A stretch of 64,000 nt of DNA, from positions 186,001-250,000 of the forward strand of contig JAFMIR010000001.1 in assembly GCA_017853885.1 (NCBI GenBank), read 5' to 3'. A model generated the notes under the pieces. The model had not been told where the DNA came from and searched no databases. It saw only the letters and a program-made list of their open reading frames with translations. Shown here one piece after another: positions 6,096 to 55,255 of the stretch; positions within the stretch are counted from its first letter, which is position 1; each line of letters starts with the position of its first letter. Made by a program: the position numbers and the translations under genes. This DNA comes from Prosthecobacter sp. (GTDB lineage: Bacteria > Verrucomicrobiota > Verrucomicrobiia > Verrucomicrobiales > Verrucomicrobiaceae).

Positions 6096-8951
6096 TCACG
6101 GGTCCAATGAACTATGCTTCTTATCAGGAATCCATTTTTCAAGAGGCACAGTAACCGTTGGCATGGACTTGGGTGATTTCTCAAGTTGGGGATAAAAGGC
6201 TACTGTCACAGTAGTTTTGCCTTTCATGGCCGGCATGCGGATCTGCAAAGTTCGGTATCCCATCAAGGATAAAGGAGGATTTTGGACGGGGGCCTCCTCA
6301 ACAGTGAATCTCGCTTCCTTTGGCGAAAGAATAACGGCCATCATGATTTGGTTTTCTTGTTCGAGTATAGCCTCACCTGCGCGAATGCGAACATTTGCAC
6401 GCGTATTCATCTGCCAGACCCAGTCGACCTCATCCCGGGTGTTGACTTCGTCTTGAACAAGAAAAAAACCTTTATGATCTTTCCCATTGCTCACAGGCTC
6501 TATGAAGAAACCACGTTTCCAACTACGCAGGTTGGAATTCGCGCACCGATGCTCAAGAATCGCCATGGAGTTGGTATCTGTGAACCGGGAATGAGTGAAA
6601 TGTGCCTTGTCTTCCGGCTTAAACGGCACGCCTAGATCCATTCCGTTGTAAGCACTTCTCCGCGACGTGTAGCCGCTTTTTAAAAGATCCACGCCAGCCT
6701 GTCTGGGCAAATCGCGCAAATTGAGCCCCCAGTCGACCCCGTTGGCGAAGAGGGAGAAGGTGCCCATGTCCTCAAGAAAGGGATTGGGGATGGCATCCAT
6801 GGCCTTGACGTCAACAACCAGAGCATCAGGATTCCAACCGGTCCGCATGACCAGAGAAGAAGATTGATCCCAGTAAGAACACAACTCGGAAGGTAAAATG
6901 CCATCAGCAGCAGCCCATGGGTTAAAGTGAAGAAGATGTCCCGCCGTTCCAAGATGGGCGGTAGAATAAGATGTTTTGGCTTCGGCGACCAATCCCGGAT
7001 AACCGGGATTTCCGTATCGGCCAGACAGCCAAGTTGAGACCGGTCCAAGCAGCATTTTTTGAGAAAGCAGGCCAAATCCACTTCCGCCGACGTTGCTAAA
7101 GGCACCCATCTTCATGATTCGAGCGCGGTTGGCTTGTGCAAAGCCCTCGAAAAGATCAAAATTACAAGGCAGCTTGTTGGAGGCAAAAGTCTCCAGAATG
7201 GGAGCAGAAGAGAAGAGAATCTCCTCGCCATCCATCATGCCCTCCGGCCAAATCCCATCAGGTGAAAACCTAGACAATCCCGTCACCCATTTCTTCAGCA
7301 GTAAGGAAAAATTTTCGTGTGCCACGTCGTGCATTTCGCCATGAAAAGTCATGCAAAAGATCAAAACCGCCGCCATGGCATTGAGGCCGTCACGGCCCAT
7401 TTCTTGATCTCGATTCATTTGTTTGATCTCCAATAGAAGAGGCTGCAGACCTTTCTGAAGAAGATTTTTTTGAATGCCTGATAGCGATTGTGGATCCATC
7501 GAACTGGCAAACCAATCATAGGCTAAACAGCTTGCCACGAGCATTCGAGACAAGTCACTTCCTTTCCCCCAGTCAGGGAAATGTTGGGGATCACACAAGG
7601 AAAGCAATTCAGCCTTGGCCCGATTGGACCAATCGGGTGTGCTTTGTCCAAGGTGATGAAGGCATCCTAATGTCGTGATGCGCCCCAGTGTCTCTGATCC
7701 CATAGAACCCCCATGCGAGGCACCAAAAATTCTTTTGAGAACAGGTTCCTTCAAGAGGTTTCTTCCAGCTTCCTCTAGGCTCGACAAGAGAGATTTGCCA
7801 ACTGCATCACTCCTCACCATGGATTGAAGCTTGGCCCACGACTCGGCATTGTGAACCAATCTGGGACGACGGTTGCCCAAAGCTTGGAGGAAAAGATCGG
7901 GACTGGCAAACTTCACTTCTTTCAACTTAATCGGCGACAAAAGCGCTGGCATTGGCAACTGGGCCGGCGCTACTCGGCCTGTCAATGTCTTGGTAGCAGC
8001 TGGGGCAAGATTCACCGGACTCGGTTGAGGATTCACCGGGCTCGGTTGAGGCTGTTTTGAGATTCCCGCCATCGTATTGAGCACCTGAACCCTGCCATCG
8101 GGGAAGCGCACCTCCAAGTTGCCGTTCTGAGGATTCAACACAATTTCTGCTTTGATAGGCTGACTCTTATCTATGGAAGATTTTGCCACTGGCGGCTCGG
8201 GAGGCCCCATGAAATCCGGGGAGGGAGTAGGAGTTGAAGCGGTCTTGGCTGGAAGGCTTTTGTCTTGAACAGATGGAGGAACTGTCGTCGCTGTTTTGGT
8301 CTCGGTAGATTGACTCGGTAGAATCTTTGGCTGAAGCAAGTTGCCTGCAGGCCCGGCCAGCCGGTCTTTGTCAGTTTTCTCAATCGTTTTTGCATCATTC
8401 CCCGCCCCTGAGTCAGCCATTCTTGGTATCGTGCTTGCAGGCAAGGTCGCAGTCGGCCCATTTTGAATAACTGGGGCAATAGGCTGAGGCGGTAAAGGCA
8501 GGGGCGTCGAAGCCAACGGAGGCGAAGCGATATCGGGTGCTGCTGTTTTGTAGGCATCCGCGACTTGAATTCGGCGCTGCTCAAAAAACCGCATGAGGCC
8601 GGGATACATCGAGTCTGCGAACCAGACTATCAACGCAAGAACGCCGAAGGCTACAACCTGAACACAAATTGATGCTAGGAACTGCCTAAATCGTGAGTGC
8701 GAGTGACTCTTTTCGGCATCAACGCCACGCGTTGATGGATGCGTTCCATGCGTTCTCTTATGATGCGTATAGGACGAACTACGGATGACGGTGCGACGTC
8801 TTGGCTTTTGAACGCTTTTCGTCCACACAAGCCGAACGGAACTGCTCCCATTCGAGTTTGACACCTCATTAGGGACCACTTCATCGGCCTGTGGGGCACG
8901 CTGAGGTTGGGAACCCATTTCTTGATTTGGTGGCAAATCTTCATTTTTCAC
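6096..8951 (-). CDS. Large membrane-anchored protein with C-terminal heparinase II/III-like or alginate-lyase-like region
   Basis: 951 aa; TM segment near residue 95 (FLASICVQVVAFGVLALIVWFA), long Pro/Ser/Thr linker, C-terminal region reminiscent of polysaccharide lyases. Confidence 0.55.
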   Translation of the reverse strand: MKNEDLPPNQEMGSQPQRAPQADEVVPNEVSNSNGSSSVRLVWTKSVQKPRRRTVIRSSSYTHHKRTHGTHPSTRGVDAEKSHSHSRFRQFLASICVQVVAFGVLALIVWFADSMYPGLMRFFEQRRIQVADAYKTAAPDIASPPLASTPLPLPPQPIAPVIQNGPTATLPASTIPRMADSGAGNDAKTIEKTDKDRLAGPAGNLLQPKILPSQSTETKTATTVPPSVQDKSLPAKTASTPTPSPDFMGPPEPPVAKSSIDKSQPIKAEIVLNPQNGNLEVRFPDGRVQVLNTMAGISKQPQPSPVNPQPSPVNLAPAATKTLTGRVAPAQLPMPALLSPIKLKEVKFASPDLFLQALGNRRPRLVHNAESWAKLQSMVRSDAVGKSLLSSLEEAGRNLLKEPVLKRIFGASHGGSMGSETLGRITTLGCLHHLGQSTPDWSNRAKAELLSLCDPQHFPDWGKGSDLSRMLVASCLAYDWFASSMDPQSLSGIQKNLLQKGLQPLLLEIKQMNRDQEMGRDGLNAMAAVLIFCMTFHGEMHDVAHENFSLLLKKWVTGLSRFSPDGIWPEGMMDGEEILFSSAPILETFASNKLPCNFDLFEGFAQANRARIMKMGAFSNVGGSGFGLLSQKMLLGPVSTWLSGRYGNPGYPGLVAEAKTSYSTAHLGTAGHLLHFNPWAAADGILPSELCSYWDQSSSLVMRTGWNPDALVVDVKAMDAIPNPFLEDMGTFSLFANGVDWGLNLRDLPRQAGVDLLKSGYTSRRSAYNGMDLGVPFKPEDKAHFTHSRFTDTNSMAILEHRCANSNLRSWKRGFFIEPVSNGKDHKGFFLVQDEVNTRDEVDWVWQMNTRANVRIRAGEAILEQENQIMMAVILSPKEARFTVEEAPVQNPPLSLMGYRTLQIRMPAMKGKTTVTVAFYPQLEKSPKSMPTVTVPLEKWIPDKKHSSLDP
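8009..8050. repeat. Two-copy 21-bp tandem repeat inside the 951-aa CDS
   Basis: gattcaccggactcggttgag / gattcaccgggctcggttgag; one mismatch; encodes PQPSPVN twice. Confidence 0.9.
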
Positions 8952-10301: not shown

Positions 10302-13088
10302 ATGACGGAACGTGATTATCTGCGGCATCTCCAACGCATCGGCGAAAAGTTTTTTCCAGACGGCGAGAAGCGCCCCCATTCACGCAGCGAAACGCTGCGA
10401 CGAGCGAAGCGCTTCCTCAAACTCAAGGAGCAGCGGATCAAGCAGCGCCACCGCTCTGGTTTTGGCGGCGCGGAGATCTGTCGCATGCGCAGCGATGTGA
10501 TCGACTATCTGATCCGAGAGCTTTGGGCCGAGACTGTTGCCTCGCTGGACACCAAGATGCGCCAGGGCCTGAATGTGAGCGTGGTAGCCCATGGGGGTTA
10601 CGGACGGCGAGTCATGTCGCCAGGCAGCGATGTGGACCTCACCTTCATGTTTCCTGGAAACAATGGCCAAGTGTCAAAGGAGTTGGCGAAGCTCATTGGC
10701 GACTTTCTTCTGTTTTTTTACGACCTTGGCTTCAAAGTAGGCCATGGAGCCCGCTGCGTTGGCGAGTGCCTGAACCTCGCCAACGAAAATATGGAGACCA
10801 AGACGGCCCTCATGGAGGCCCGTTTCCTCACCGGACAGGACGAGGCCTTCAAGGAGTTTCGAAAGCGTTTTGACAAGGAATGCATGAAGGGCCGTGAGGC
10901 CGAGTTCCTGCGCCTACGGCAGGATGATCTATCGAAGCGGCATGCGAAGTTTGAAAACACACCCTTCGTTCAAGAGCCCCAAGTGAAAAATGGCTGCGGT
11001 GGTCTGCGCGATTATCAGAATCTCATTTGGATGACTTATGCGAAACTCGGCACGCTGAACCCGAAAGACCTTGTTGCTGGCGGTTCCATCTCGAAGAGTG
11101 GCTGGCAGGAGATCGAGCGGGCCTATGCTTTCATCCTCCGCGTGCGCAATGAGATGCACTACACCGAGCGCCGCGCTCAGGACCAGCTCACGCTTCGCCT
11201 GCAGGGCCAGGTGGCTACTCATCTTGGCTACCGTCACAAGCGCATCCTACGCCGCATTGAGGCGCTAATGCACGACTACTACAACGCAACACGGGACATC
11301 CTGCAGCGCAGCAGCGAGATCATGGATCGCTTCCACCTGCAGCAGCTCGAGACCGCCGAGCAGCGCCGTGGCTTGCGCGGCTTTCTCGCTAGAAACAAAT
11401 CGAAGAAACAAACTGAGAAATTCGACGGCTTCATCCGCAAACACGAGCGCATTTATGCGGATGACAAGAACGTCTTCAAAGAAGACCCGGAGCGCCTCAT
11501 GCGGCTCTTTTTGCACACACAGCAGCGTCACCTGCGCCTCAGCCCAGATCTCTTTCAGCTTGTGCAGGACAACTTCCGCCTCGTGGATCAATCCTTCCGC
11601 TACGCGAAGGTAAACCGCGAGACCTTCGAGGCCATCCTATCGCAAAAGGGGGATGTGGCCCGGGTTCTCCGCCAAATGCACCGCGTCGGTTTCCTCGGCA
11701 AATGGATGCCGGAGTTCGGTGCATTGACCAACCTTGTGCAGCACGAATTTTTCCATCTGTACACCGCCGATGAGCACACCCTGCGCACCATCGACAAGCT
11801 GGACGAGCTCAGCGATCCCGCTTTGCCGGGCGTGAAGCTCTACCAGCAGCTTTTCCACGACCTACAGCAGCCTGTCATCCTCTATCTTGCGCTGCTGCTG
11901 CATGACGCAGGCCGTGCTGCAAACAAGAAACCGCATAGCGACGAGAGCACAACGCTCGCCGCGGCCGTATGCCGTCGCCTCCAGATCAAAGGCGAGCGAC
12001 GCCGTCTGCTGCTGTTCCTTGTGGACAACCACCTGCTCATGTACCGAACTGCCACACAGAAAAGCCTAGAGGACCCCGCGGTTATCGAGGAGTTCGCCGG
12101 CATCGTGCGCACGAAGGAGAATCTCGATACGCTCCTCGTGATGACCTACGCCGACTCGAAGGGCACGAGTGACAAATCATGGACCGGCTACAAGGAGACC
12201 GCCATCCGCCAGCTTTACCACAACACGCTGCGCTTCATGAATGCACCAGCCGATTTTATGCGCAGCCTGCACGCGCCATTGAACGAGCTGCGCATCACCG
12301 TGCTGAGAAAACTCGGCATCGGCTTCGAGGCAGAAGTCGATGCGCACTTTCAGCACATGCCCGCCTCTTACTTCAACTTCCGAGAAGCCGAGAGCGTCAT
12401 CGAGCATGTACTTCAGTTTCGCGAGTTCTTCACGAAGCTTGTCTCTGAGGAAAAAGCGGAGGCCGGCCTGCTACCCGTCATGCATTGGGTGGATCATCCC
12501 GAACAGGGCTACAGTGATCTCACCGTCGTCTGTTGGGACCGCCACCTGCTACTAGCCCGTGTCGCCGGAGCCCTTGCCGCGCAGAGCATCAACATTCTCA
12601 GTGCCGACTTCTTCCGCCGGGCTGACCATCTTGTGCTCGATATCTTCCGCGTCTGCACCACGAACTTCACTGCAGTGAGCGCCAAGGCCTCGCGTCAACG
12701 TGTCGAAGCCGCTGTGAAAGCGGCGTTCCTCGATCCCGAATTCAATTTCAGCAAGGAGATCGCAGAGAAGCGCTCCGCCGCCTCGCCGCTCGATGCCATT
12801 AGCGCCGAGCTACCGCAGCGGGTGCATCTCAACAACCATCTCTCGCCCGATGAGAACGTGCTCGAGCTCCAGGTGCTCGACCGCCTCGGCCTGCTCTATG
12901 ATGTCTTCATGGCCGTCGGCCGCCTCGGCTTGAACGTCACTCACGCCCGCATCAACACCGAAAAAGGTGCCGCGATCGACACCATTTATGTTCAAGACGG
13001 GCAAGGTTGCAAAATCACCAACAAAGAGAAGCTCGACGAACTAGCGAACGCCGTGAACGCTGCCGCATTATCTGACACCTCCGACTAG
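10302..13088 (+). CDS. glnD: [Protein-PII] uridylyltransferase / bifunctional GlnD
   Basis: 928 aa; nucleotidyltransferase GGYGRRVMSPGSDVDL, HD domain LLLHDAGRA, C-terminal ACT-like region (HLLLARVAGALAAQSINI, DRLGLLYDVF). Confidence 0.94.
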   Translation: MTERDYLRHLQRIGEKFFPDGEKRPHSRSETLRRAKRFLKLKEQRIKQRHRSGFGGAEICRMRSDVIDYLIRELWAETVASLDTKMRQGLNVSVVAHGGYGRRVMSPGSDVDLTFMFPGNNGQVSKELAKLIGDFLLFFYDLGFKVGHGARCVGECLNLANENMETKTALMEARFLTGQDEAFKEFRKRFDKECMKGREAEFLRLRQDDLSKRHAKFENTPFVQEPQVKNGCGGLRDYQNLIWMTYAKLGTLNPKDLVAGGSISKSGWQEIERAYAFILRVRNEMHYTERRAQDQLTLRLQGQVATHLGYRHKRILRRIEALMHDYYNATRDILQRSSEIMDRFHLQQLETAEQRRGLRGFLARNKSKKQTEKFDGFIRKHERIYADDKNVFKEDPERLMRLFLHTQQRHLRLSPDLFQLVQDNFRLVDQSFRYAKVNRETFEAILSQKGDVARVLRQMHRVGFLGKWMPEFGALTNLVQHEFFHLYTADEHTLRTIDKLDELSDPALPGVKLYQQLFHDLQQPVILYLALLLHDAGRAANKKPHSDESTTLAAAVCRRLQIKGERRRLLLFLVDNHLLMYRTATQKSLEDPAVIEEFAGIVRTKENLDTLLVMTYADSKGTSDKSWTGYKETAIRQLYHNTLRFMNAPADFMRSLHAPLNELRITVLRKLGIGFEAEVDAHFQHMPASYFNFREAESVIEHVLQFREFFTKLVSEEKAEAGLLPVMHWVDHPEQGYSDLTVVCWDRHLLLARVAGALAAQSINILSADFFRRADHLVLDIFRVCTTNFTAVSAKASRQRVEAAVKAAFLDPEFNFSKEIAEKRSAASPLDAISAELPQRVHLNNHLSPDENVLELQVLDRLGLLYDVFMAVGRLGLNVTHARINTEKGAAIDTIYVQDGQGCKITNKEKLDELANAVNAAALSDTSD

Positions 13089-21984: not shown

Positions 21985-23757
21985 ATGTCCAACCTCACTG
22001 TCCGAGCCGCCAGCCTTCCACCTCCGATCCCCGGTCTCAACCGTGCTCTCCGGAAGCCCAAAAAAAACATCCCGCAGACCAAAATCGAACGGGATCATAT
22101 CCTCGCCACAGTTCGCGAGTATGCGCAGCAGACCGGCCTCGTGCCGCCCATACCGCTGGAAGAACTCAGCCAGCACACGGACAAACTGATCGCCATCCAT
22201 GGATTTGACACTCTTTACCGTGACTACATTGGCGTGCTCATGGCGAACGAAAGCTGGCGGGAACACCTCGCGACCGTGCCCTTCGAAAAACGCCTGTTGC
22301 TGATGCCGAAGTGCCTTCGTGTCGAGAGCAAGTGCCCCGCACCCTTTGATGAATTCGGCCTTCTGTGTAAGCAGTGCGGCCTTTGCAGCATCCAAGACTT
22401 TCAAAATGAGGCTGAAAAACTCGGTTACGCCGTCCTAGTTGCCGAAGGCAGTGCTATTGTGATGTCGCTCATCCAAACGGGCAAGATCGAGGCCATCGTC
22501 GGCATCTCCTGCCTCCCTGTCTTGGAAAGAACCTTCCCCTACGTTGAAGCTGCCGCCATCCCCGCCGTTGCCGTGCCGTTGCTGCAGGACGACTGCATCG
22601 ACACCGTTGTCGATATTGACTGGGTATGGGACTACATTCACCTCACCAGCGAGGATAAAACACGCCGCCTGAACCTCAATGAACTACACGACGAGGTGAA
22701 GACTTGGTTCACCCGCGAGTCGCTTGATGCCCTCATGGGCCCACCACGCGGACACACCGAGGAAATCTCACGCGAGTGGCTCGCCCGTGCCGGCAAGCGA
22801 TGGCGTCCATTTTTGACCGTCGCCGCTTATCAGGCCCTCCGCGATGACCCTGAGGCGCCAATCAGCGATTCCATTAAACGCGCCGCCATCTCCGTCGAAA
22901 TCTTCCACAAGGCCTCGCTCGTGCATGACGACATCGAGGACGGCGACGCCGAACGCTACGGCGAAACCACGCTGCACACCGAACATGGTATCCCAGTTGC
23001 CCTAAACATCGGTGACCTACTCATCGGAGAAGGCTACCGCCTGCTCGCTGATGGCGACCTACCTGCGCACCTCCGGACTGCGGCGCTGCAAGTCGCTGCT
23101 GAAGGCCAGCGTGAGCTCTGCATCGGCCAAGGTGCTGAATTACTCTGGACGCGGCATCCCGTGGCCCTCAGCAGCCAACAGGTGCTTGAAATCTTTCGTA
23201 GCAAGACCGCGCCTGCATTTGAAGTCGCTTTGAAAGTCGGTGCCGCGCTCGCAGGTCGCCTCGATGAATGCGCTGATGTGCTTCACACCTATAGCGAAAA
23301 CCTCGGCATCGCCTACCAGATCCGCGATGACATTGACGACCTCGGAGAGGACAGTGCCGCCGCCAATGAATGGAGCATGCGCCCAAGCATCATCCTCTCG
23401 CTCCTGCGCGAGAAAGGCAAAGGCAGCGCCAAGGACACCATGGAGGCCCTTTGGAACGGCCAGCCATGCGAAAAGCCCACCAATGCCCTCATCCGCGACT
23501 GGGCGCACGAAAGCGGTGCTTATGAAAAAGCCACCACACTTCTCGAAGGTTACAAGGAGGCCGCCATCCGCAGTTTACAGGAAGTCGAAATCCCAAATCT
23601 GAAGGGTCTGCTGCGTCGTGTAATCGGCAAAATTTTCAATGAACTCGAAATCAAGGGCTGGTGCCGCGAATTCGAGCAAAAGAACCTCAACCCCGAGCTC
23701 CGCGCCGAGGCCGCCAAAGCCGCTGAGCACCTGGTCCCGCAGCCGCAGAAAACGTAA
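21985..23757 (+). CDS. Fusion of DUF116-like cysteine-rich domain and polyprenyl synthetase
   Basis: 590 aa; N-term LLLMPKCLRVESKCPAP...LCKQCGLCSI; C-term FHKASLVHDDIEDGDAERYGETTLH and YQIRDDIDDLGED (two DDxxD motifs). Confidence 0.85.
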   Translation: MSNLTVRAASLPPPIPGLNRALRKPKKNIPQTKIERDHILATVREYAQQTGLVPPIPLEELSQHTDKLIAIHGFDTLYRDYIGVLMANESWREHLATVPFEKRLLLMPKCLRVESKCPAPFDEFGLLCKQCGLCSIQDFQNEAEKLGYAVLVAEGSAIVMSLIQTGKIEAIVGISCLPVLERTFPYVEAAAIPAVAVPLLQDDCIDTVVDIDWVWDYIHLTSEDKTRRLNLNELHDEVKTWFTRESLDALMGPPRGHTEEISREWLARAGKRWRPFLTVAAYQALRDDPEAPISDSIKRAAISVEIFHKASLVHDDIEDGDAERYGETTLHTEHGIPVALNIGDLLIGEGYRLLADGDLPAHLRTAALQVAAEGQRELCIGQGAELLWTRHPVALSSQQVLEIFRSKTAPAFEVALKVGAALAGRLDECADVLHTYSENLGIAYQIRDDIDDLGEDSAAANEWSMRPSIILSLLREKGKGSAKDTMEALWNGQPCEKPTNALIRDWAHESGAYEKATTLLEGYKEAAIRSLQEVEIPNLKGLLRRVIGKIFNELEIKGWCREFEQKNLNPELRAEAAKAAEHLVPQPQKT

Positions 23758-23817: not shown

Positions 23818-26800
23818 GTGTACATCCACACCCACAGCCTCGTCTTTGCTGCACTCGCCTCATCCGCGCTGGCTGTTGACTATGCGAAAGACATCAAGCC
23901 GCTGCTCAAGGAGCGCTGCTACGCCTGTCATGGTGCCTTGAAGCAAAAAGGGGGCCTGCGGCTCGACACCGTCGCGCTGTTAAAAACCGGTGGAGACAAC
24001 GGTGACGCCACCAAGCATCTGCTCGACCGCCTGACCACCGTCGACAAGACCGACCGCATGCCACCCGAAGGCGAGGGTGCGATGTTAAATGCCGAGCAAG
24101 TTGCCAAGGTGCGCGAATGGATCGCCGCTGGGGCACTAGGCATCACTGATGAAAAACCCGAGGCTGATCCGCGTGCACACTGGGCCTACCAAGTACCTAA
24201 AAACTCCCGCCAGAGCATTGACGCCATGCACGCCGCACACCTCGCCGCGAAGCAGCTCAAGCCCCAGCCTTCAGCGGCACACGATGTGTGGCTGCGCCGG
24301 GTTTCTTTTGATCTGACGGGGCTGCCACCAACACAAGTTTTGGGCCTGTCGGATGCCCAACTCATCGACCGCCTGCTCGCCTCGCCACAGTTCGGCGAGC
24401 GCTGGGCACGGCACTTCATGGACATTTGGCGTTACTGCGACTGGTATGGACTCGGCACGCAGCTCCGTCATTCCCAAAAACACATCTGGCACTGGCGTGA
24501 CTGGATCATCGAAAGCCTCAACGCGGACAAAGGTTATGACCGCATGATCATCGAACAGCTCGCCGCCGACGAGCTCGCACCGGAGGATCGCTCCACGCTG
24601 CGTGCCACCGGCTTCCTCGCCCGCAGCTACTACCTTTTCAACCGTACCACCTGGCTCGATGAGACGCTTGAGCATAGTTCCCGCGCTTTCCTCGGCCTTA
24701 CCATGCAATGCGTGAAATGCCACGATCATAAGTACGATCCCATCGACCAAGCGGACTACTACCGCCTTCGCGCCGTCTTTGAGCCAGTGCATGTGCGGCT
24801 CGACCCACTGCCTGGCGTCATCGACTTCGAAAAGAACGGCCTACCACGTGCCTTCGACCTTCATCTGGATCGCCCCACCTTTCGCCACATTCGCGGCGAT
24901 GAAAAAAACGAAGACAAGTCCAAACCGATGATGCCAAACATCCCCAGTGTGCTCGAGTTTGCTTCTTTCACTCCCAAAAACATCACGCTACCGAAAACCA
25001 TCTCACAGCCCTTTTTGCAGCCTTTTGTGCTCAAAGACCATCTCGCCTCCGCCGAGGCGGAAATAGCGGCCTTGGAAAAACAACGGCCTATCAAGCCAAT
25101 AGCCTCTGCAACTAGCACAAAGCCACAAACCCTCCTCCGCGAGGATTTCGCTAAGCCTCGTCCCGCAGCATGGAAAGCTGACTCTGGCACCTGGAAGCAC
25201 GAGAACGGTTCGCTCCGCCAAACTCAGATCGGTGCGCAACGCCGACTCATGCAACTCAGCACTCGTCCACCGGCGGATTTTGATGCAAAAGTCAGTTTCA
25301 CCATCCGTGGCGGTGAAAAATGGAAGTCTGTCGGCCTCGTCTTCGACCTCGCGGAGCACAGGGATGTGCTCGTTTATCTGAGCGCTGTGCAAGGCGGCTC
25401 AAAAGTGCAAATCGCTCTTGGTGAAAACGGCAAGGCCAGCTACCCCGCTGGAGCTAGCCACGCAATGGCGGTGAAGGAAAATGAACGTCATATGCTCCAG
25501 GTGCGTGCTTGCGGCACGCTGATCCATGTGAGCGTTGATGGAAAACAGGCCATCACTTACACGCTCACGAAACCACGAATGCCCGGTGCCATCGCACTCG
25601 CCGCTTTCGATGCCGACGTTGAGTTTCATTCCTTCGAGCTCGCCACGCTACCTGCCGATGCCGTGCTCGCTTCGTCAAATATGCAGGTCATCGAGAAACA
25701 GCTCAGCGCCGCGAAGTTGAAGCCCGCCATGCTTCGCGCCTCCTTCGCCGCCGAAAGCAAAAAAGGCGACAAGGCCCTCGCGAAGGCCGCCGCACTCGCC
25801 GAAGCCCAATTCAAGCTCGCCAAAGCCGAGGCTGACCTCGCCGAGCTCAATCCCACGGCCGATGCAAAGAAGCACAAGGCCGCACAAGACACCGTTGCCG
25901 CCGCGCAAAAGAAACTTAGGGAACCTGGCGAGAGCTACACACCGCTACTAGCTTCGCTCAAAGCCCAGGAGGGCCCGGATGATCCCAACAACGCCATGGT
26001 GCAGACTTATCCTGCCAGCAGCACTGGCCGTCGGCTTGCTTTTGCGCAATGGATCGCTGACCAGCGGAACCCGCTCACTGCCCGTGTGCTCGTCAATCAA
26101 GTGTGGATGCGTCTAACCGGCTCCAGCTTCGTGCCGGATGTGAGCGATTTCGGACTACGCGCCCCCGCTCCCACACAGCAGGACATGCTCGACACTCTCG
26201 CCACCGGCTTCATGGAGAATGCATGGAGCCTGAAATGGCTCATCAAGCAAATTGTCCTCAGCGATCTCTACCGCCGCAGCTCAAGCACTGCCGGTGCCGA
26301 CGCACGCACGCTCGCCGCTGATCCAGACAACGCCCTGCTGTGGCGCATGAATCCACGCCGGCTCGAGTCCCAATCGGTGCGTGATGCCCTTCTCGCCATC
26401 AGTGGCAAGCTGGATCTGAGCCTCGGTGGCCCCAGTCTCGATCCCGACAAGGCCGGGAACACGCCGCGACGCAGTCTCTATTTCATCCAGACACCGGACG
26501 TGGAGCACCGTTTCCTCGGAGCCTTTGACAACTCGAATGTTCTCGAATGCTACCGACGCAATGAAAGCGTCGTTCCGCAACAGGCCCTCGCTCTCACGAA
26601 CAGCCAGCTCAGCCGCTCAACCGCTGATGCCCTCACCGAAAAACTCCGCGCCACAGCGCCAGCTGACTTCATCCGCCGCGCGTTCCAAGCCATCCTAAAC
26701 CGCTCTCCGAACGACAAAGAACACCAAGTCAGCCTTGAAGCCCTTGCCGCGATGAAGAACAACCATGCGCTCTTTTTGCAGGCCCTCCTGAATCACAACG

Positions 26801-26820
26801 ACTTTATCACCCTCCGGTGA
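23818..26820 (+). CDS. PSD1/DUF1549/DUF1553 protein with N-terminal cytochrome c-like domain (paralog 1)
   Basis: 1000 aa; signal peptide; ERCYACHG; LRRVSFDLTGLPPT; MQCVKCHDHKYDPI; DQRNPLTARVLVNQVWMRLTG. Confidence 0.93.
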   Translation: MYIHTHSLVFAALASSALAVDYAKDIKPLLKERCYACHGALKQKGGLRLDTVALLKTGGDNGDATKHLLDRLTTVDKTDRMPPEGEGAMLNAEQVAKVREWIAAGALGITDEKPEADPRAHWAYQVPKNSRQSIDAMHAAHLAAKQLKPQPSAAHDVWLRRVSFDLTGLPPTQVLGLSDAQLIDRLLASPQFGERWARHFMDIWRYCDWYGLGTQLRHSQKHIWHWRDWIIESLNADKGYDRMIIEQLAADELAPEDRSTLRATGFLARSYYLFNRTTWLDETLEHSSRAFLGLTMQCVKCHDHKYDPIDQADYYRLRAVFEPVHVRLDPLPGVIDFEKNGLPRAFDLHLDRPTFRHIRGDEKNEDKSKPMMPNIPSVLEFASFTPKNITLPKTISQPFLQPFVLKDHLASAEAEIAALEKQRPIKPIASATSTKPQTLLREDFAKPRPAAWKADSGTWKHENGSLRQTQIGAQRRLMQLSTRPPADFDAKVSFTIRGGEKWKSVGLVFDLAEHRDVLVYLSAVQGGSKVQIALGENGKASYPAGASHAMAVKENERHMLQVRACGTLIHVSVDGKQAITYTLTKPRMPGAIALAAFDADVEFHSFELATLPADAVLASSNMQVIEKQLSAAKLKPAMLRASFAAESKKGDKALAKAAALAEAQFKLAKAEADLAELNPTADAKKHKAAQDTVAAAQKKLREPGESYTPLLASLKAQEGPDDPNNAMVQTYPASSTGRRLAFAQWIADQRNPLTARVLVNQVWMRLTGSSFVPDVSDFGLRAPAPTQQDMLDTLATGFMENAWSLKWLIKQIVLSDLYRRSSSTAGADARTLAADPDNALLWRMNPRRLESQSVRDALLAISGKLDLSLGGPSLDPDKAGNTPRRSLYFIQTPDVEHRFLGAFDNSNVLECYRRNESVVPQQALALTNSQLSRSTADALTEKLRATAPADFIRRAFQAILNRSPNDKEHQVSLEALAAMKNNHALFLQALLNHNDFITLR

Positions 26821-27207: not shown

Positions 27208-30102
27208 ATGCGATACAGCCTGCTTTTACTCTCCACCACGCTAACAGCGGCCCCGGTGGATTTTGTGCGTGATGTGCAGCCTCTTCTTCAGGAACACTGC
27301 CATTCCTGCCACGGCCCAAGCAAGCAGGAGGCAGCCTTCCGCCTCGACCACAAGCCTAGCGCCATGAAAGGCGGGGACTTTGGCTCAGCTATCCTACCGG
27401 GAAAAAGCGCAGACTCCCTGCTGGTGCATGCCATCGAAGGCAGGAATCCCAAGATGCGGATGCCGCGCAAAGGTGATCCGCTATCCGCGGAACAGATCGC
27501 ACTCATACGCCGCTGGATCGACGAAGGTGCTGTCTGGCCGGACAGCGCCAGCGTGAAGCTGGAGCAGAAAACCGATCACTGGGCCTTTAAACGACCAGTG
27601 AAGGTCAAACCACCTTCGGCTGGAAATCCCATCGATGCGTTCATTAGGGCTCGTTTGAAAAAAGAAGGCTTGAAGCTGTCTCCGAAGGCTCCACCGGAGG
27701 TTTTACGGCGGAGAATGCATCTCGATCTCGTAGGGCTTCCACCGGCCCCATCCGACAAGTCAGACATCTCAGACCTGTTAGAGAATCTTCTCAAATCTCC
27801 CCATTTCGGAGAACGCTGGGGGCGTCACTGGTTGGATGCAGCACATTATGCAGACTCGAACGGCTATGAGAAGGACCCGATGCGCTTCATCTGGTTCTAC
27901 CGGGACTGGGTGATTCATGCCTTCAACAACGACATGCCTTACAACCAGTTCATTATCGAGCAGATCGCAGGGGACCTGCTTCCGAATGCCACGCAGGATC
28001 AAATCGTAGCCACCGGCTTCCTACGAAACTCGATGATCAATGAAGAAGGTGGTGTTGATCCTGAGCAATTCCGCATGGAGGCCATGTTCGACCGCATGGA
28101 CACCATCGGGAAGAGCATCCTCGGCCTCACTATCGGCTGCACACAATGCCACAACCACAAATACGACCCCATTTCGCAGGAAGAGTACTACCGAATGTTT
28201 GCCTATCTGAACAACGACAACGAGCCTTGGCGCGTGGTTTACACACCATCTGAGCAGATGACACGCTCCAAGGTGCTGCAACGCGTGGCGGAATGGGAAA
28301 ACCAACTCCAGCATGAGCACGCCGACTGGCCGCAACGGCTCGAAGCTTGGAAAAAGTCTATCAAGCACCCAAACTGGACAACACTGAAATTTGAGGATGA
28401 CCCCAGCGGCGGCGAAAAAGCCCTGCGCCAGCCTGACGGCAGCGTTTTGGCACAAGGTTACGCACCGACGAAGAGCGAAGTAAGGTTCAATGTGGTGCTC
28501 GATAAGCCGATGAGAATCAGCGCCTTTCGTCTAGAGCTCATGAATGACCCCAACCTACCCGCGTATGGTCCCGGGCGTTCGCAAAAGGGCACAGCGGCGC
28601 TGACGGAGTTCAGCGTGACGATGAAAATGGATGGCAAGGATACCAAGCTGAAGTTTGTCAAAGCCACCGCTGACTTCGGCGAACCAGAAAACACACCGCT
28701 GGTTGGTTTTGCCCGAGATCAGGACACCGCGAAGGACAAACGCGTCACCGGGCCCATCACCTATGCAATCGATGGCGATGACAAAACTGCGTGGGGCATC
28801 GACGCCGGCCCCGGCAGGCGCAATGTGCCTCGCAATGCTGTTTTTGTGCTGGAGGCGCCTATCGAGGTAAAACCTAACTCAGGCCTCATGGTCGGCCTGA
28901 GCATGAAACACGGCGGCTGGAACAGCGACGACCTCCAAACCATGAACCTTGGCCGTTACCGCATCAGCGCCACCGATGCCACGCAAGCCGAGGCGGATCC
29001 TCTTTATGGCAAGAAGGCCGACTTTGCCGTCTTCCGCACCACGGTTCCGGAATGGAAGAGCATCAACGACGAGATCGAAGTTGAATGGCAGAAGCATCCT
29101 GAGGGTGCGACCACGCTCGTGCTCGACGCACGAGAACAACCGCGCATGACAGCTTTGCTCAAGCGCGGCGATTTTACCAAGCCAGGCGATCGCATGAGTC
29201 CCGGCGTGCCTGCCGTGCTGAACCCACTGCCAAAAAATGCGGACAGTTCACGACTCACCTTCGCAAGGTGGCTCACCAGCAATGAATCACCCACCACAGC
29301 ACGAGCTTTTGTGAATCGGGTGTGGCAGTCCGTCTTTGGAACCGGCCTCGTGGACACACCGGAAGATTTTGGCAGACAGGGCAGTAAACCCACGCATCCC
29401 GAACTGCTCGACTGGCTCGCCGCTGACTTTATGGAGAACGGGTGGAGCCTCAAAAAGCTTCTGCGCCTCATCATTTCCAGCGAGACCTACCAGCAAAGCA
29501 GCCATGCGCCCCCCGAATCTCTCGATCGTGATCCCTACAACCGTTTGCTGGGTCGCGGACCTCGTTTTCGTGTGGAAGGTGAAGTCGTGCGTGACATCCA
29601 GCTTGCCGTCAGCGGCCTTCTGAATCCGGCTGTCGGCGGCCGCGGCGTGATGCCGCCTGCCCCAGCACATCTCTTCGAGAAGCCAGCCAGCTACGCCCCC
29701 TTTCCTTGGCATGTGGAGAAGGATGCGCAGAAGTATCGCCGCGCCATTTATGTCTTCCGCCGCCGCAGCACACCCTATCCTTTCCTCAGCACCTTTGATG
29801 TGCCGAATGGAGAAAGCTCCTGCATCCGCCGCTCCCGCAGCAACACACCGATGCAGGCCCTCATGACGTTGAATGAAACGATGAGCATGGAAGCTGCGAA
29901 AGCTCTCGCCTGCCGCATGGAAAAGGAGGGTGGCATCTCGCAAGGCTTCCGCCTTTGCACGAACCGCGAACCAACCAAGAAAGAGCTGCAAGCCCTCCAA
30001 GACCTCGCGAAACGCCAAAGCTCACGCAAGGATGCCATACCGCCCATGGTGGCCGTCGCGCGGGTGCTATTGAATCTTGACGAGACAATCACGAAGGAAT
30101 GA
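27208..30102 (+). CDS. PSD1/DUF1549/DUF1553 protein with N-terminal cytochrome c-like domain (paralog 2)
   Basis: 964 aa; [68 protein letters not shown]. Confidence 0.94.
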   Translation: MRYSLLLLSTTLTAAPVDFVRDVQPLLQEHCHSCHGPSKQEAAFRLDHKPSAMKGGDFGSAILPGKSADSLLVHAIEGRNPKMRMPRKGDPLSAEQIALIRRWIDEGAVWPDSASVKLEQKTDHWAFKRPVKVKPPSAGNPIDAFIRARLKKEGLKLSPKAPPEVLRRRMHLDLVGLPPAPSDKSDISDLLENLLKSPHFGERWGRHWLDAAHYADSNGYEKDPMRFIWFYRDWVIHAFNNDMPYNQFIIEQIAGDLLPNATQDQIVATGFLRNSMINEEGGVDPEQFRMEAMFDRMDTIGKSILGLTIGCTQCHNHKYDPISQEEYYRMFAYLNNDNEPWRVVYTPSEQMTRSKVLQRVAEWENQLQHEHADWPQRLEAWKKSIKHPNWTTLKFEDDPSGGEKALRQPDGSVLAQGYAPTKSEVRFNVVLDKPMRISAFRLELMNDPNLPAYGPGRSQKGTAALTEFSVTMKMDGKDTKLKFVKATADFGEPENTPLVGFARDQDTAKDKRVTGPITYAIDGDDKTAWGIDAGPGRRNVPRNAVFVLEAPIEVKPNSGLMVGLSMKHGGWNSDDLQTMNLGRYRISATDATQAEADPLYGKKADFAVFRTTVPEWKSINDEIEVEWQKHPEGATTLVLDAREQPRMTALLKRGDFTKPGDRMSPGVPAVLNPLPKNADSSRLTFARWLTSNESPTTARAFVNRVWQSVFGTGLVDTPEDFGRQGSKPTHPELLDWLAADFMENGWSLKKLLRLIISSETYQQSSHAPPESLDRDPYNRLLGRGPRFRVEGEVVRDIQLAVSGLLNPAVGGRGVMPPAPAHLFEKPASYAPFPWHVEKDAQKYRRAIYVFRRRSTPYPFLSTFDVPNGESSCIRRSRSNTPMQALMTLNETMSMEAAKALACRMEKEGGISQGFRLCTNREPTKKELQALQDLAKRQSSRKDAIPPMVAVARVLLNLDETITKE

Positions 30103-30105
30103 TCA

Positions 30106-32064
30106 TCACGTCTGCTCCACACGGAAGACGTGCATCGACACGCCGTCAGGTTTCAGTTCGACGTAATTGTGAGCTCCATTCCACTCATAAGTGCCCCCGT
30201 GCAGCAAATCGATCACCCTAAAGGGTTTTGAAGCATCGAGCCCCAGCGCCGTGAGGTCCAGATGCACCATGCTCGCAGCAGTTTGCTTTGGATCAAGATT
30301 GATGCAGCAAAGAATGCGGTTGCCATGATCCGGCGTGGCTTTGCTGTAGCTGATGATCTGGCGATGGTCAGCAGCATGGAAGCGCAGATTATCATAGAGA
30401 TGCAGCGCAGCGTTGTCGCGACGGATGAGATTCAGCTTGCGGATGAAACCGCTGATGTTTCCGGACTTGTTGTAGTCACGCTGCACGAGTTGATACTTCT
30501 CGCTGTGGTTGTATTCCTCCTTGCCTGGATAGGGCTCGTTTTCACACAACTCGTATCCGGTGTAGATGCCCCAAATGCTCGACATGGTGGCGGCGAGGGC
30601 GGCGCGGATTCGAAACATCTGCGGGCCGGCATTTTGCAGGTGCCAAGGCAGGATGTCGGGCGTATTAGGCCAGAAATTGGCACGATAATACCAGCGCATG
30701 TCGCCATGGAAAAGCTCGCGGGCATACTCTTCAAGCTCGGCTCGACTCTCACGCCAAGTGAAGTAAGTATAACTTTGCGTGAAGCCAATTTTGCCAAGCG
30801 CCTGCATCATCTTCGGCTTCGTGAAGGCCTCAGCGAGGAAGATCACGTCAGGGTCCTTGCGCTGAATGGTGCCGATGAGCTCTTCCCAGAAGGCCACGGG
30901 CTTTGTATGCGGATTGTCCACGCGGAATATCTTCACACCGCAATCGACCCAGAACTCGACAACACCGATTAGTTCCTTCCACAGCGCCTTCCAGTCGTCA
31001 CAGTGGAAATTGATCGGGTAAATGTCCTGATACTTCTTCGGAGGATTCTCGGCGTAGCGGATGCTTCCATCTGGACGCTGATAAAACCACTTGGGATGTT
31101 CTTTAACATAAGGATGATCGGGAGAGCAGTTGATGGCAAAGTCGAGTGCGATTTCTAGGCCCCGTTTGTTGGCCTCCCCAACAAGCCATTGGAAATCTTC
31201 GAGAGTGCCCAGTGCTGGCTCAATAGCCCGATGACCACCTGCGGGGCCGCCGATGGCCCACGGGCTGCCCACATCACCCTCAATCGCGGTGAGTGTGTTG
31301 TTTTTGCCTTTGCGGGCGGTGATACCAATCGGATGGATCGGCGGAAAATAGATCACATCAAAGCCTAGTTGTGCCGCGTGGTCGAGGCGGCCGAGACAGT
31401 CGCGGAAGGCACTGTGTTTGTTGGCGAGACCTTCTGCGCCACGAGGGAAAAATTCATACCAGGCCGAGAACCTTGCCCGATCCCGCTCAACGATGACCTG
31501 CATTGTGGCAGAAAGGGTGGAAAGGCTGCGATCCGGGAAGCGATCCATCAGCGCCTGCATTTCATCAGAATGGATCACGTCGAGGATCTCTTGTGCGGGC
31601 ACTTGGTTCAGCAGGCCAGCCCATTCCTGCATCTTGGAGGCCGCTGCCCTGATGCCTGCTTTCTTGGCGCGTGCCGCAGCTTCTTTGAGCAGGCGAGCCC
31701 CCTCGCGCGCTTCGATGGGCACATCGGGGTCTTCGGCCGCCACACGCACGGCGAAAGTCTTCTTCCACGAGCGAAAAGCATCACCCCACACCTCCACGAG
31801 GTATTCCCAGCGTCCTGCTTTCTCAAACGCACAGCTCCCATGCCAGCGGTCGTTCTGATCAAGTGTCATCGGAGCCTCGCACCAGCGTTTCGAGCCCACC
31901 AAGCGCCAGCGCAGCACTGCGGTCATCACGTCATGGCCGTCTTTGAAAATATCACACCAAACATCGAGAGGTTCGCGCATCACGCGTTTCACCGGGTGTC
32001 GGCCCCCCTCGATGCAGGGGTAGAAGTTTTCGATGACAACTGTAGGAGCGTGTTTGGCGGACAT
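30106..32064 (-). CDS. glgE: Alpha-1,4-glucan:maltose-1-phosphate maltosyltransferase
   Basis: VVIENFYPCIEGGRHPVKRVMREPLDVWCDIFKDGHDV, DVIYFPPIHPIGITARKGKNN, GVKIFRVDNPHTKP; start refined to MSAKHAP at 32064. Confidence 0.9.
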   Translation of the reverse strand: MSAKHAPTVVIENFYPCIEGGRHPVKRVMREPLDVWCDIFKDGHDVMTAVLRWRLVGSKRWCEAPMTLDQNDRWHGSCAFEKAGRWEYLVEVWGDAFRSWKKTFAVRVAAEDPDVPIEAREGARLLKEAAARAKKAGIRAAASKMQEWAGLLNQVPAQEILDVIHSDEMQALMDRFPDRSLSTLSATMQVIVERDRARFSAWYEFFPRGAEGLANKHSAFRDCLGRLDHAAQLGFDVIYFPPIHPIGITARKGKNNTLTAIEGDVGSPWAIGGPAGGHRAIEPALGTLEDFQWLVGEANKRGLEIALDFAINCSPDHPYVKEHPKWFYQRPDGSIRYAENPPKKYQDIYPINFHCDDWKALWKELIGVVEFWVDCGVKIFRVDNPHTKPVAFWEELIGTIQRKDPDVIFLAEAFTKPKMMQALGKIGFTQSYTYFTWRESRAELEEYARELFHGDMRWYYRANFWPNTPDILPWHLQNAGPQMFRIRAALAATMSSIWGIYTGYELCENEPYPGKEEYNHSEKYQLVQRDYNKSGNISGFIRKLNLIRRDNAALHLYDNLRFHAADHRQIISYSKATPDHGNRILCCINLDPKQTAASMVHLDLTALGLDASKPFRVIDLLHGGTYEWNGAHNYVELKPDGVSMHVFRVEQT

Positions 32065-32148
32065 GGAAAGGCATGGATAGCCGTGAATCGGATTTTGGAA
32101 GAGAAAAATCCCTTTGGAGCTTCGCTGCTTTTGCGCCATGCATCACAA

Positions 32149-33483
32149 ATGCCCAACCCTGCTTCCAGGAAAAAAATCCTGCTCGCCGAAGACGTGCGTG
32201 CGATTGCCTTGCAGCTATCGCATGCCTTGGAAAAGGCGGGATACGAAGTTGATGTGGCTCGTGACGGGGAGGAGTGCCTCGATAAGATAGCATCTTTTCA
32301 GCCAGACCTGCTCGTGCTGGACTTGATCATGCCGAAGACTACCGGTCTGGAGGTGCTCCGAACCCTGCGTGCTGGCGCAGCCACGGAAAACTTGGCCGTA
32401 ATCATCACCACAGCCAAAGATTATTCCACAGAGCTGAAGCACATACGCCAGAGCAGTCCGCTGGATGTGCTGATTAAGCCCTTCGCACCCCAAGTGTTGA
32501 TCTCGAAGCTCGAAGGCTTCTTCAATTCTGCCGCCAGTTGTTCCCTTGAGGCCAGTCGGCCTGTCCGCGATACTCCATCAGAGGTCTATTCGCCTGCCTT
32601 GGATCCAAAAAGACCTCACGTAAGGTTTTGGGGCACACGCGGCTCGATTCCGGTCTCAGGCGGCCGGTATGCACAGCACGGCGGAAACACGACCTGCTTC
32701 GAGTTTTGCACAGGCCAAGACCGCATCCTCTTTGATGCTGGCTCTGGCCTGCGTGAAGCTGCTCTCTCCATGCTGAAAGAAGGGCCGCGGCACATCCATC
32801 TCTTCATCACTCACACGCATTGGGACCACATCCAGGGTTTCCCCTTCTTTACACCCATTTACGTGCCCGGCTTTGAGATCACCGTTTACGGCGAGCGTGG
32901 CTTTGGAAAAAACATTGAATCGCTTCTGGTTGGCCAACTCGATCGCGACTACTTCCCCGTGCAACGCGAAGACCTGGCCGCAAAGATCAACTTCGTCTTT
33001 CTAGAGGATCGGCCTGTAGAAATAAGTGGCGCCAAAATTTCCCGTGAGTATGTCCATCACCCTGGAGCGACTGTTGGTTTCAAGATTGAGCACGACGATT
33101 GGAAAGTCGCCTTCATTCCGGACAATGAGTTCCTCCAAGGCTACACCGGCAGCCCGGTGGGTCTCACTCGGGACAACGATATCGTAGTGCCTCATGAACC
33201 AGTGATTCAATTTGTCGAAGGAGTCGATCTGCTCGTTCATGAAGCCCAGTATCTTCCAAACGAGTACGCCAAAAAAATTGGTTGGGGACATTCCAACCTT
33301 ACCAGTGCGTGTGCCCTTGCCAAATTGGCTGGTGTGAAGAAGTGGATTGCCGTACACCATGATCCAGATCACGACGACATCGCTCTACACGCAAAACATG
33401 GTCTCACCCGGCAGATCCTTGCCGACCTTAATTACCGCATCCCCTTCGTCCACGGCTACGATGGCCTCGTGGAGTATCGATAA
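32149..33483 (+). CDS. Response-regulator receiver domain fused to MBL-fold metallo-hydrolase
   Basis: KILLAEDVRAIALQLSHALEKAGYEV...LLVLDLIMPKTTGLEVL...VLIKPF then VRFWGTRGSIPVSG...LFITHTHWDHIQGFPFF; start refined because the 31369 extension runs antisense through glgE. Confidence 0.9.
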   Translation: MPNPASRKKILLAEDVRAIALQLSHALEKAGYEVDVARDGEECLDKIASFQPDLLVLDLIMPKTTGLEVLRTLRAGAATENLAVIITTAKDYSTELKHIRQSSPLDVLIKPFAPQVLISKLEGFFNSAASCSLEASRPVRDTPSEVYSPALDPKRPHVRFWGTRGSIPVSGGRYAQHGGNTTCFEFCTGQDRILFDAGSGLREAALSMLKEGPRHIHLFITHTHWDHIQGFPFFTPIYVPGFEITVYGERGFGKNIESLLVGQLDRDYFPVQREDLAAKINFVFLEDRPVEISGAKISREYVHHPGATVGFKIEHDDWKVAFIPDNEFLQGYTGSPVGLTRDNDIVVPHEPVIQFVEGVDLLVHEAQYLPNEYAKKIGWGHSNLTSACALAKLAGVKKWIAVHHDPDHDDIALHAKHGLTRQILADLNYRIPFVHGYDGLVEYR

Positions 33484-38614: not shown

Positions 38615-40258
38615 TCAAAAATCGATCACAGGGGCTTCATGTTCGCGATTGCTTTGGAAGGTTCGCAAGACCAGATCTGGCTTTGGAAGCTCCTCATTCC
38701 CCACATGGCTCCAATTCAGACCAGGGCAAAAACGCGATTTCCAAGCTCCGCGATGCAGCAGCGTATCTGCGGCCCCATGACGTAGCCAAGGGAAGATCTT
38801 CTTGTGGCTCAAAGCGAGCCTCAAAGCATTGAGATCCCCCGCCACACTCAGAATGTGCATCGGCCGGATCGCATGCTTTTGCGCGAGGGCTTCATAGACC
38901 AAAATAGCCGATATGGCTGCCGCGCCGCTTCCAAGACCTTCATCCAAGACAATGACCGGCGTCTCATCTTTGGCCTTCAAGAGCTTCACCAGATCCGGAA
39001 GCTCCTCTCGGAGCTCGGTAGGCACCACAGTGCCGGTTTCAAGATGACGGATGGATGAACCGTGAAGCTCAAACTGGCCCATTTCGCTCACCATGGAGCT
39101 TTGACCGCGTTTTGGCGGTTTCACCGGATGATCGAGATCCTCCTCGGCGAGGATGGCTCGCTTCTCATGGTAGAGCAGCAAGAAGCGATCTTCGAGAATG
39201 CTCGTGCGGATCTCGCGCATGAGCTGGTGGTAAAAGTGGATGTTGTGCTGGCCGATGAGCGTCCAGCCGAGCGCTTCTTGTGTCTTCGTGAGATGATGCA
39301 AATACGCCCGCGAGTGCGTGGCGCAAACTGGGCATGTGCAGGCAATATCCAGCGGCGCATCAGCGAATTTATACACGCTGCGCCGCAACTCAACGATGCC
39401 CCGCGAGGTGAAGGCGGTGCCGCGTTTCGCCACCTGCGTGGGAATGATGCAGTCAAACATATCCATCCCGCGATGCACGGCTTCCAACAAGTCGATCGGC
39501 ATGCCCACGCCCATCAAGTAACGCGGCCGATCCTCCGGCAGTAGCGCGGCGGTGAGCTCGCACACATCCTCGCGTTGATGTTTTTCTTCACCCACGGCCA
39601 ATCCACCAATGGCGAAGCCATCAAAAGGCATCGTCACCAGCCCAGCGGCGCTTTCTTTCCTCAAATGTGGATATAACGCACCTTGTACGATGGCGAAAAG
39701 TGATTGTGGCGAATCCTCGCGAGCCGCGAGGCTGCGGGCCGCCCAGCGTTGTGTGACCTGCAAGGCCTTCCGAGCCGTTTTTTCATCCGCCGTGCTCGCG
39801 ATGCACTGGTCGAGCACCATCATAATGTCACTACCGATGCTGCGTTGGGTCTGGATGCTTAGTTCCGGGCTTAGCAGGAAGCGGCGGTTATCGACATAGC
39901 TTTGAAACACCGCGCCTTTCTCCGTGATCAATCGCGAATGAGGCAGCGAGAAGATTTGATATCCCCCTGAGTCGGTGAGCACCGAGCCGGGCCATTTCAT
40001 GAAGCGATGAATGCCTCCCATCTTCTCAAACACCTCTGGCCCCGGCCGCAGTAGCAAATGGTAGGTGTTTGCGAGCAAAATCTGCGATCCCGAGGCCGCC
40101 AGCGACTGCGGCGTCTGCGCCTTTACTGTCGCCTGCGTGCCGACTGGCATGAACAACGGCGTCTGGATCAACCCATGCAACGTGCGAAAAGTCGCTGCAC
40201 GCGCCCGCGAACCTGTGGCGCGTGCTTGCAGTTGAAAATCAAGACGATAGAGGGGCAT
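38615..40258 (-). CDS. tgt: tRNA-guanine transglycosylase with about 170-aa C-terminal extension (possible MnmC-like methyltransferase, truncated)
   Basis: 547 aa; TPLFMPVGTQATVKA, VLTDSGGYQIFSL, GGLAVGEEK, CTCPVCATHSRAYLHHL; extension contains VIVLDEGLGSGAAAISAILVYEAL. Confidence 0.9.
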   Translation of the reverse strand: MPLYRLDFQLQARATGSRARAATFRTLHGLIQTPLFMPVGTQATVKAQTPQSLAASGSQILLANTYHLLLRPGPEVFEKMGGIHRFMKWPGSVLTDSGGYQIFSLPHSRLITEKGAVFQSYVDNRRFLLSPELSIQTQRSIGSDIMMVLDQCIASTADEKTARKALQVTQRWAARSLAAREDSPQSLFAIVQGALYPHLRKESAAGLVTMPFDGFAIGGLAVGEEKHQREDVCELTAALLPEDRPRYLMGVGMPIDLLEAVHRGMDMFDCIIPTQVAKRGTAFTSRGIVELRRSVYKFADAPLDIACTCPVCATHSRAYLHHLTKTQEALGWTLIGQHNIHFYHQLMREIRTSILEDRFLLLYHEKRAILAEEDLDHPVKPPKRGQSSMVSEMGQFELHGSSIRHLETGTVVPTELREELPDLVKLLKAKDETPVIVLDEGLGSGAAAISAILVYEALAQKHAIRPMHILSVAGDLNALRLALSHKKIFPWLRHGAADTLLHRGAWKSRFCPGLNWSHVGNEELPKPDLVLRTFQSNREHEAPVIDF

Positions 40259-54598: not shown

Positions 54599-55255
54599 AT
54601 GTCTCTTTCTCTCGTTGAAACTGTTTCCCGCCGAATCATCGGCCTCGCTCGATCCAATGGCTCAAGCGGCCGTTTGCCGACCGAGCGTGATATGTCGGCA
54701 AAATTTGGCGTGAGTCGCAGTGTGATCCGCGAGGCAGCAAAACGTCTGGAGCTGCAGGGCCTGCTGGAGATCCGCCAAGGAAGCGGCATGACGATCGTCG
54801 ACAAGCTCCACAAGCCGCTCAACGGAGCGCTTAGTCTCCTCGTGCCTAACGAGTTTCAGCGGCTGAGACAGCTCACCGAGGTGCGTCTCGCCATCGAACC
54901 GGAAAACGCAAGGCTCGCCGCCGAACGCGCAACGGCAGCAGATTGTGAAGCGCTCTCAGCCTGCCACGATCGATTCGAAGCTGCATCAGGCTTTGAAGAG
55001 CAGGTCAATGCCGACATGACCTTCCACTGCCTGATTGCCGAAGCTTCTGGCAACAAGATCGCCGCACTGCTTATCCAAAGCCTCTCTGAGCTGCTGCAAA
55101 CCAGCCTCAATCATGGATACAGCCGCGTCACGAAAGACCTAGCTGTCGCCGACCACGCCCAAGTCCTCCGCGCCATCCTCGGCCGTCGACCTGCCGCCGC
55201 CGCGAAAGCCATGAGAACCCACCTCAAACACGCCCGCACAGACCTTGGCCTATGA
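54599..55255 (+). CDS. FadR/FCD-type GntR-family transcriptional regulator
   Basis: LPTERDMSAKFGVSRSVIREAAKRLELQGLLEIRQGSGMTI wHTH and FCD-like C-terminal domain; start either 54518 or, as preferred here, 54599. Confidence 0.88.
   Translation: MSLSLVETVSRRIIGLARSNGSSGRLPTERDMSAKFGVSRSVIREAAKRLELQGLLEIRQGSGMTIVDKLHKPLNGALSLLVPNEFQRLRQLTEVRLAIEPENARLAAERATAADCEALSACHDRFEAASGFEEQVNADMTFHCLIAEASGNKIAALLIQSLSELLQTSLNHGYSRVTKDLAVADHAQVLRAILGRRPAAAAKAMRTHLKHARTDLGL

Follow-up and report, generated by a model that had tools for sequence, protein, structure and literature searches.

A DUF116–polyprenyl synthetase fusion of Verrucomicrobiota is co-inherited with a class II cyclase, a ferredoxin, and a radical SAM protein, and may serve a terpenoid-lipid pathway

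The 64,000-nucleotide stretch of a Prosthecobacter sp. genome analyzed here (the window) encodes a protein in which a cysteine-rich DUF116 domain precedes a trans-isoprenyl (polyprenyl) diphosphate synthase, and across Verrucomicrobiota this fusion is inherited together with a squalene-hopene-cyclase-like protein, a ferredoxin, and a radical SAM protein. We judge it somewhat probable that the fusion catalyzes the first step of an undescribed terpenoid-lipid pathway of this phylum, with DUF116 as a putative redox domain of the Fe–S type; that the fusion belongs to the co-inherited module is far better supported than what DUF116 does there. The fusion itself is not a discovery, because Makarova et al. 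noted it in 2015 in Pirellula staleyi (Psta_0175) and proposed a function in electron transfer (PMC5898192); the novelty implied in the preliminary description of this gene was therefore not borne out. What appears to be undescribed so far is the operon and co-inheritance context of the fusion. Our literature search on DUF116 found that one paper as the sole treatment of the domain, and a search on the operon found nothing; papers dealing with terpenes and radical SAM enzymes, such as PMC12654047, are unrelated to the fusion operon.

The fusion gene (plus strand) is a single uninterrupted frame of 590 codons with an ATG start, and its features are listed in Table 1. In Pfam profile searches, the protein matched DUF116 (PF01976) at 116.9 bits, against a cut-off of 25 (E = 7.5e-34), and polyprenyl_synt (PF00348) at 132.9 bits, against a cut-off of 27 (E = 1.5e-38). 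The preliminary description, made from the sequence without database searches, had recognized both families, and all the cysteine and prenyltransferase motifs that it quoted, including both Asp-rich motifs, are present. It had also named a missing DUF116 hit, or a frameshift or assembly error joining two genes, as findings that would speak against it. Both Pfam scores greatly exceed their cut-offs, and the probability of such an artefact is negligible: the frame is intact, the full-length fusion recurs in many independent assemblies at 32–98% identity (the loci at 97–98% belong to Verrucomicrobiaceae), and 42 of 42 diverse full-length members matched both PF01976 and PF00348. The fusion is confirmed as a genuine gene architecture.

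A survey across Verrucomicrobiota, as the preliminary description had proposed, found matches to both halves in about 64 of the 388 sampled genomes, with 80% identity within the same genus and 32–45% in very distant families. A scan of named contigs yielded 80 loci, nearly all aligned over almost the whole protein, which span Verrucomicrobiaceae, other Verrucomicrobiales, and Chthoniobacteraceae and include the cultured Brevifollis gellanilyticus (L033). For its occurrence outside Verrucomicrobiota, our basis is the published Pirellula protein (PMC5898192). In a quick tree, the fused prenyltransferases grouped together (SH-aLRT 96), and unfused sisters sharing the FHKASL...RYG signature fell outside this group, a topology that fits a single fusion event. 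Meanwhile, one unfused pair (L175/L176) nests inside the fused group and looks like a case of DUF116 domain loss.

Table 1. Coordinates of the fusion gene and its features in the window
Feature	Position	Strand	Evidence
Fusion gene, 590 aa: DUF116 + trans-isoprenyl (polyprenyl) diphosphate synthase	21985..23757	+	Pfam; 42/42 diverse relatives alike
N-terminal three-helix segment, residues 33-96, preceding the DUF116 alpha/beta core; N88 and W91 conserved	22081..22272	+	AlphaFold2 model, alignment
DUF116 domain, residues 71-217; probably a redox domain that binds an Fe-S cluster or another metal	22195..22635	+	PF01976; model pLDDT 89
Cysteine cluster C110-x6-C117-x10-C128-x2-C131-x2-C134	22312..22386	+	Invariant in alignments
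C176 and C204, which follow beta strands of the core (GISC; DDC-x2-T)	22510..22596	+	Invariant; strand ends from model
Polyprenyl synthetase core, Pfam match at residues 259-459; helices of the fold extend to ~550	22759..23361	+	PF00348; Foldseek
GKRWRP substrate-binding motif, residues 270-275; G270, R274, and P275 invariant, K271 nearly so	22792..22809	+	Alignment
First Asp-rich motif region FHKASLVHDDIEDGDAERYG, residues 307-326, RYG replacing RRG; D315, D316, D319, D321, and R324 invariant, Y325 nearly so	22903..22962	+	Alignment
Second Asp-rich motif DDIDD, residues 448-452; D449 invariant, D448 and D452 nearly so	23326..23340	+	Alignment

The C-terminal half has the hallmarks of a prenyl synthase. 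Its Asp-rich motifs read D315-D316-x-x-D319 and D448-D449-x-x-D452, and DDIED, R324, H331, K407-T408, and Q445 are also kept in the fusion alignment. The usual triplet after the first Asp-rich motif of prenyl synthases is RRG; here it is R324-Y325-G326, and the Tyr at the second Arg position is kept in nearly the whole fusion family. The AlphaFold2 model of the full-length fusion is confident (mean pLDDT 86, pTM 0.83), and Foldseek matched the prenyltransferase half to solved GGPP/polyprenyl synthases at a TM of about 0.8. Compared with PF00348 synthases such as the GGPP synthase of Pyrococcus horikoshii (1wy0), the fusion shares the fold, the Asp-rich motifs, GKxxRP, KT, and Q, but differs in having DUF116, RYG rather than RRG, NCBIfam scores below the cut-offs, and a clade of its own. 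The NCBIfam prenyl-synthase models matched weakly, far under every chain-length equivalog cut-off, so that no chain length can be assigned from them. Speculatively, Ala at position -5, Ser at -4, and Phe at -8 relative to the first Asp-rich motif would point to a medium chain, in the range C20 to C30. As its catalytic residues do not set it apart from the general family, the protein might be an ordinary housekeeping synthase of the quinone or undecaprenyl type, with the fusion and the neighboring genes being incidental; however, two further prenyl synthases are encoded in the genome and group apart from the fusion clade, and the patchy presence of the fusion tracks that of the cyclase, ferredoxin, and radical SAM genes, and we consider this explanation very improbable.

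In the DUF116 half, seven cysteines (C110, C117, C128, C131, C134, C176, and C204) were invariant in 113 aligned fusions, and the same seven were invariant across 46 DUF116 domains, including unfused ones at 17–23% identity. For the family (arCOG02078/COG1852/PF01976), at least six conserved cysteines are described, CxxCxxC among them, and a flavodoxin-like fold was proposed using HHpred (PMC5898192); the fusion has seven. In our model, a helical segment is followed by a four-stranded alpha/beta core, and C110, C176, and C204 come shortly after core strands, where a cofactor site would usually be located. The domain may hold a metal or Fe–S cluster. A search of the PDB with the DUF116 sequence found no related entry, and a fold search found nothing significant, the weak matches being Rossmann-like B12-binding and receiver domains (best E of 0.04). 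This is in keeping with the fold of the flavodoxin type that Makarova et al. put forward (PMC5898192).

Psta_0175 and the fusion in the window have the same pair of domains, and what is proposed for DUF116, an alpha/beta core of the flavodoxin-like type and a function in redox chemistry, is also the same for both. In the published account, however, Psta_0175 is treated in one sentence, with no operon, cyclase, radical SAM protein, co-occurrence, or residue survey of the fusion (PMC5898192). Archaeal DUF116 proteins, such as MMP0162, likewise share the Pfam family and the cysteine-rich core with CxxCxxC; the family was also present in Methanocaldococcus jannaschii and Methanosarcina acetivorans, which were in our control set. 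The archaeal proteins are described as having two membrane helices at the N-terminus, with no mention of a prenyltransferase (PMC5898192); in the AlphaFold2 model of the fusion, the N-terminal segment consists of polar helices and appears soluble. The published context of archaeal DUF116 genes likewise indicates a redox function (PMC5898192).

Among 195 genomes, full-length matches to the fusion occurred in 31, a homolog of the ferredoxin occurred in exactly those 31, and the cyclase occurred in the 31, with a fragment of it in one further genome. For the radical SAM protein, 29 of the 31 carriers and no other genome of the 195 had a homolog; the remaining two (G114 and G124) gave no hit at E ≤ 1e-40. 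The chance of 31 of 31 being shared is about 1e-36 (hypergeometric), a figure that assumes independent genomes, which these are not fully, but presence varies within a dozen families. When the sample was 388 genomes, the fusion was present in 64, the cyclase in 63, and both in 61 (Fisher, 7e-65); in the genomes outside the first sample, by an approximate split, the corresponding numbers were 33, 31, and 30. No cyclase was detected in three fusion genomes (G214, G294, and G342) and no fusion in two cyclase genomes (G139, which has a 175-aa fragment, and G248), and some of these exception genomes are incomplete.

In many lineages, the partner genes lie on one strand in the order Cys protein/ferredoxin, radical SAM protein, fusion, 300-aa toroid protein, and 600-aa cyclase (35–75% identity), and the small Cys protein and the two-cluster ferredoxin often form one ORF. 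The radical SAM protein bears further C-terminal cysteines, and the partner of about 300 aa is an alpha/alpha-toroid protein of the Prenyltrans type. The partner of about 600 aa contains the N and C domains of squalene-hopene cyclases (SQHop_cyclase) and an invariant VPDADDT, which includes DXDD, the motif of class II (proton-initiated) cyclases. For the small Cys protein, a by-eye suggestion that it is HdrA-like was unsupported by Pfam, NCBIfam, and PDB searches. One complete one-strand operon (L177:5667-13819, G065:C81) contains genes for the radical SAM protein, a GcvH-like protein, a CobW-like GTPase, the Cys-protein/ferredoxin, the fusion, the 300-aa toroid protein, and the 600-aa DXDD cyclase. 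The GcvH-like and CobW-like genes there lie between the radical SAM and ferredoxin genes, and on inspection the GcvH-like protein keeps a Lys at the putative lipoyl position. A cysteine desulfurase gene adjoins the cluster in a few loci. Furthermore, PQQ-like beta-propeller (BamB-type) proteins recur next to the operon in several distant lineages (L136; L137:2912-4222 and 10919-12115; L138; L143:4025-5293).

In Verrucomicrobiaceae, the family of the window, the pathway genes are unclustered. The genome of the window has all the partners, scattered on separate contigs: the radical SAM gene on C103, the Cys protein and ferredoxin genes together on C77, the 600-aa cyclase gene on C93, and the gene for the 300-aa protein on C102. 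Since all are present though dispersed over contigs, we regard them as one dispersed pathway. The cyclase context had escaped the preliminary description because in this genome those genes lie elsewhere. By eye, the cyclase gene of this genome is located just upstream of sufC-like and sufD-like genes on the same strand (L173:3368-9364, G000:C93).

Around the fusion gene in the window, nothing is widely conserved. The Sel1-repeat protein gene upstream and the PSCyt cytochrome gene downstream are unsupported as functional partners, since most relatives do not have them next to the fusion gene. The window also includes four large planctomycete-type cytochrome ORFs (23818-26820, 27208-30102, 55252-57807, and 59260-62112), the first assigned as PSCyt1/PSCyt2/PSD1 by Pfam and the others by resemblance. 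Elsewhere in the window, a tRNA-guanine transglycosylase (38615-40258, minus strand; TGT domain at residues 18-365) has a C-terminal extension of about 180 aa with no Pfam match, and its gene adjoins that of a 402-aa adenylate-kinase-like protein (40265-41473, minus strand), of which Pfam matched only residues 54-145, leaving a long unexplained C-terminal part. A receiver domain of the response-regulator type and a metallo-beta-lactamase-fold domain share one ORF (31369-33483, plus strand), the listed start of which is probably too early, and a 951-aa protein (6096-8951, minus strand) had no Pfam match at E 0.001.

The distribution of squalene/phytoene synthase bears on the substrate of the cyclase. 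This family (SQS_PSY, PF00494) was absent from 24 of the 31 fusion carriers and present in seven, one of which is the genome of the window. The cyclase of the 24 carriers therefore cannot depend on squalene from that family, and squalene was rejected as the general substrate for most carriers. For the same reason, the cyclase most likely acts on the polyprenyl diphosphate made by the co-inherited fusion. Hopanoid and sesquarterpene pathways also pair a prenyl synthase with a class II cyclase that bears DXDD and belongs to the squalene-hopene cyclase family. Unlike those pathways, however, the gene set described here comes in most carriers without a squalene/phytoene synthase and adds a ferredoxin, a radical SAM protein, and DUF116, and its cyclase scores far under the hopene and oxidosqualene cyclase cut-offs (97.5 bits vs. 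431.1 for the hopene-cyclase equivalog).

In the pathway that we propose, the C-terminal half of the fusion would elongate an allylic diphosphate with IPP, and the chain would then pass to the class II (DXDD) cyclase, which, with help from the second toroid protein, would convert it into a cyclic polyprenoid. DUF116, as a redox domain that carries an Fe–S cluster (or a similar metal) on an alpha/beta core of the flavodoxin-like type, would take electrons from the ferredoxin/Cys protein and either use or relay them at the prenyl chain or pass them to the partner radical SAM enzyme, and the fusion would hold this redox step where the chain is made. The suggestion in the preliminary description that isoprenoid chain synthesis is tied to a metal or redox cofactor fits the invariant cysteines, the ferredoxin and radical SAM partners, and the genes beside unfused DUF116. 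One unfused DUF116 gene is divergent to ispH (LytB) (L126:7143-8593) and others adjoin CrtN/CrtI-like FAD desaturase genes (L127:4552-10314, L130:6762-8833, and L131:4035-9564), which suggests from a few cases that DUF116 has a wider role in isoprenoid metabolism.

Several points count against this account, including the unclustered genes of Verrucomicrobiaceae and the exception genomes noted above. The seven cysteines could coordinate Zn or have a structural role; no electrons are consumed in making a prenyl diphosphate, and the fusion of a redox domain to such a redox-neutral step lacks an explanation; and the unfused prenyltransferases of the same clade (L175/L176) indicate that the domain can be lost. 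DUF116 might instead be a structural or regulatory module, binding Zn or an Fe–S cluster, that docks partners or sets the chain length without carrying electrons and leaves the prenyltransferase as the sole catalytic half. The redox neutrality of elongation and the unfused clade members agree with such a module, as does the full-length pTM, which would suggest a fixed packing of the two halves. However, the seven cysteines are invariant even in unfused DUF116 proteins with other neighbors, which goes beyond the needs of docking, and the nature of its partners, ferredoxin and radical SAM protein, also speaks against it. We consider a purely structural or regulatory function unlikely, though deserving of serious weight.

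It is less probable still that DUF116 itself reduces the isoprenoid with electrons from the ferredoxin, by saturating a double bond or by an IspH-like step, to give a partly reduced prenyl diphosphate. Seven cysteines would permit a four-Cys cluster together with an open-site three-Cys cluster as in IspH, the operon includes a ferredoxin, and unfused DUF116 genes adjoin ispH and desaturase-like genes. In contrast, the PDB fold search gave no match to a known reductase, no substrate residues were identified, and the cyclase requires at least an intact terminal double bond.

DUF116 has been a domain of previously unknown function with no solved structure, and co-inheritance now links one of its branches to a particular proposed terpenoid pathway with named partners, which could be identified even in this genome, where their scatter hides them from a neighborhood view. 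Verrucomicrobiota, and perhaps Planctomycetes, may make a hitherto unknown cyclic polyprenoid lipid or lipid-borne redox cofactor by a co-inherited pathway in which the fusion would feed a class II cyclase directly, without squalene, and an Fe–S chain of DUF116, ferredoxin, and radical SAM protein would modify the isoprenoid by redox or radical chemistry; we put this forward tentatively, as a slightly doubtful proposition. If it is true, many Verrucomicrobiota have an isoprenoid lipid route not described before, in which a DXDD cyclase is joined by radical SAM and Fe–S chemistry, and this may bear on how bacterial lipid biomarkers are read.
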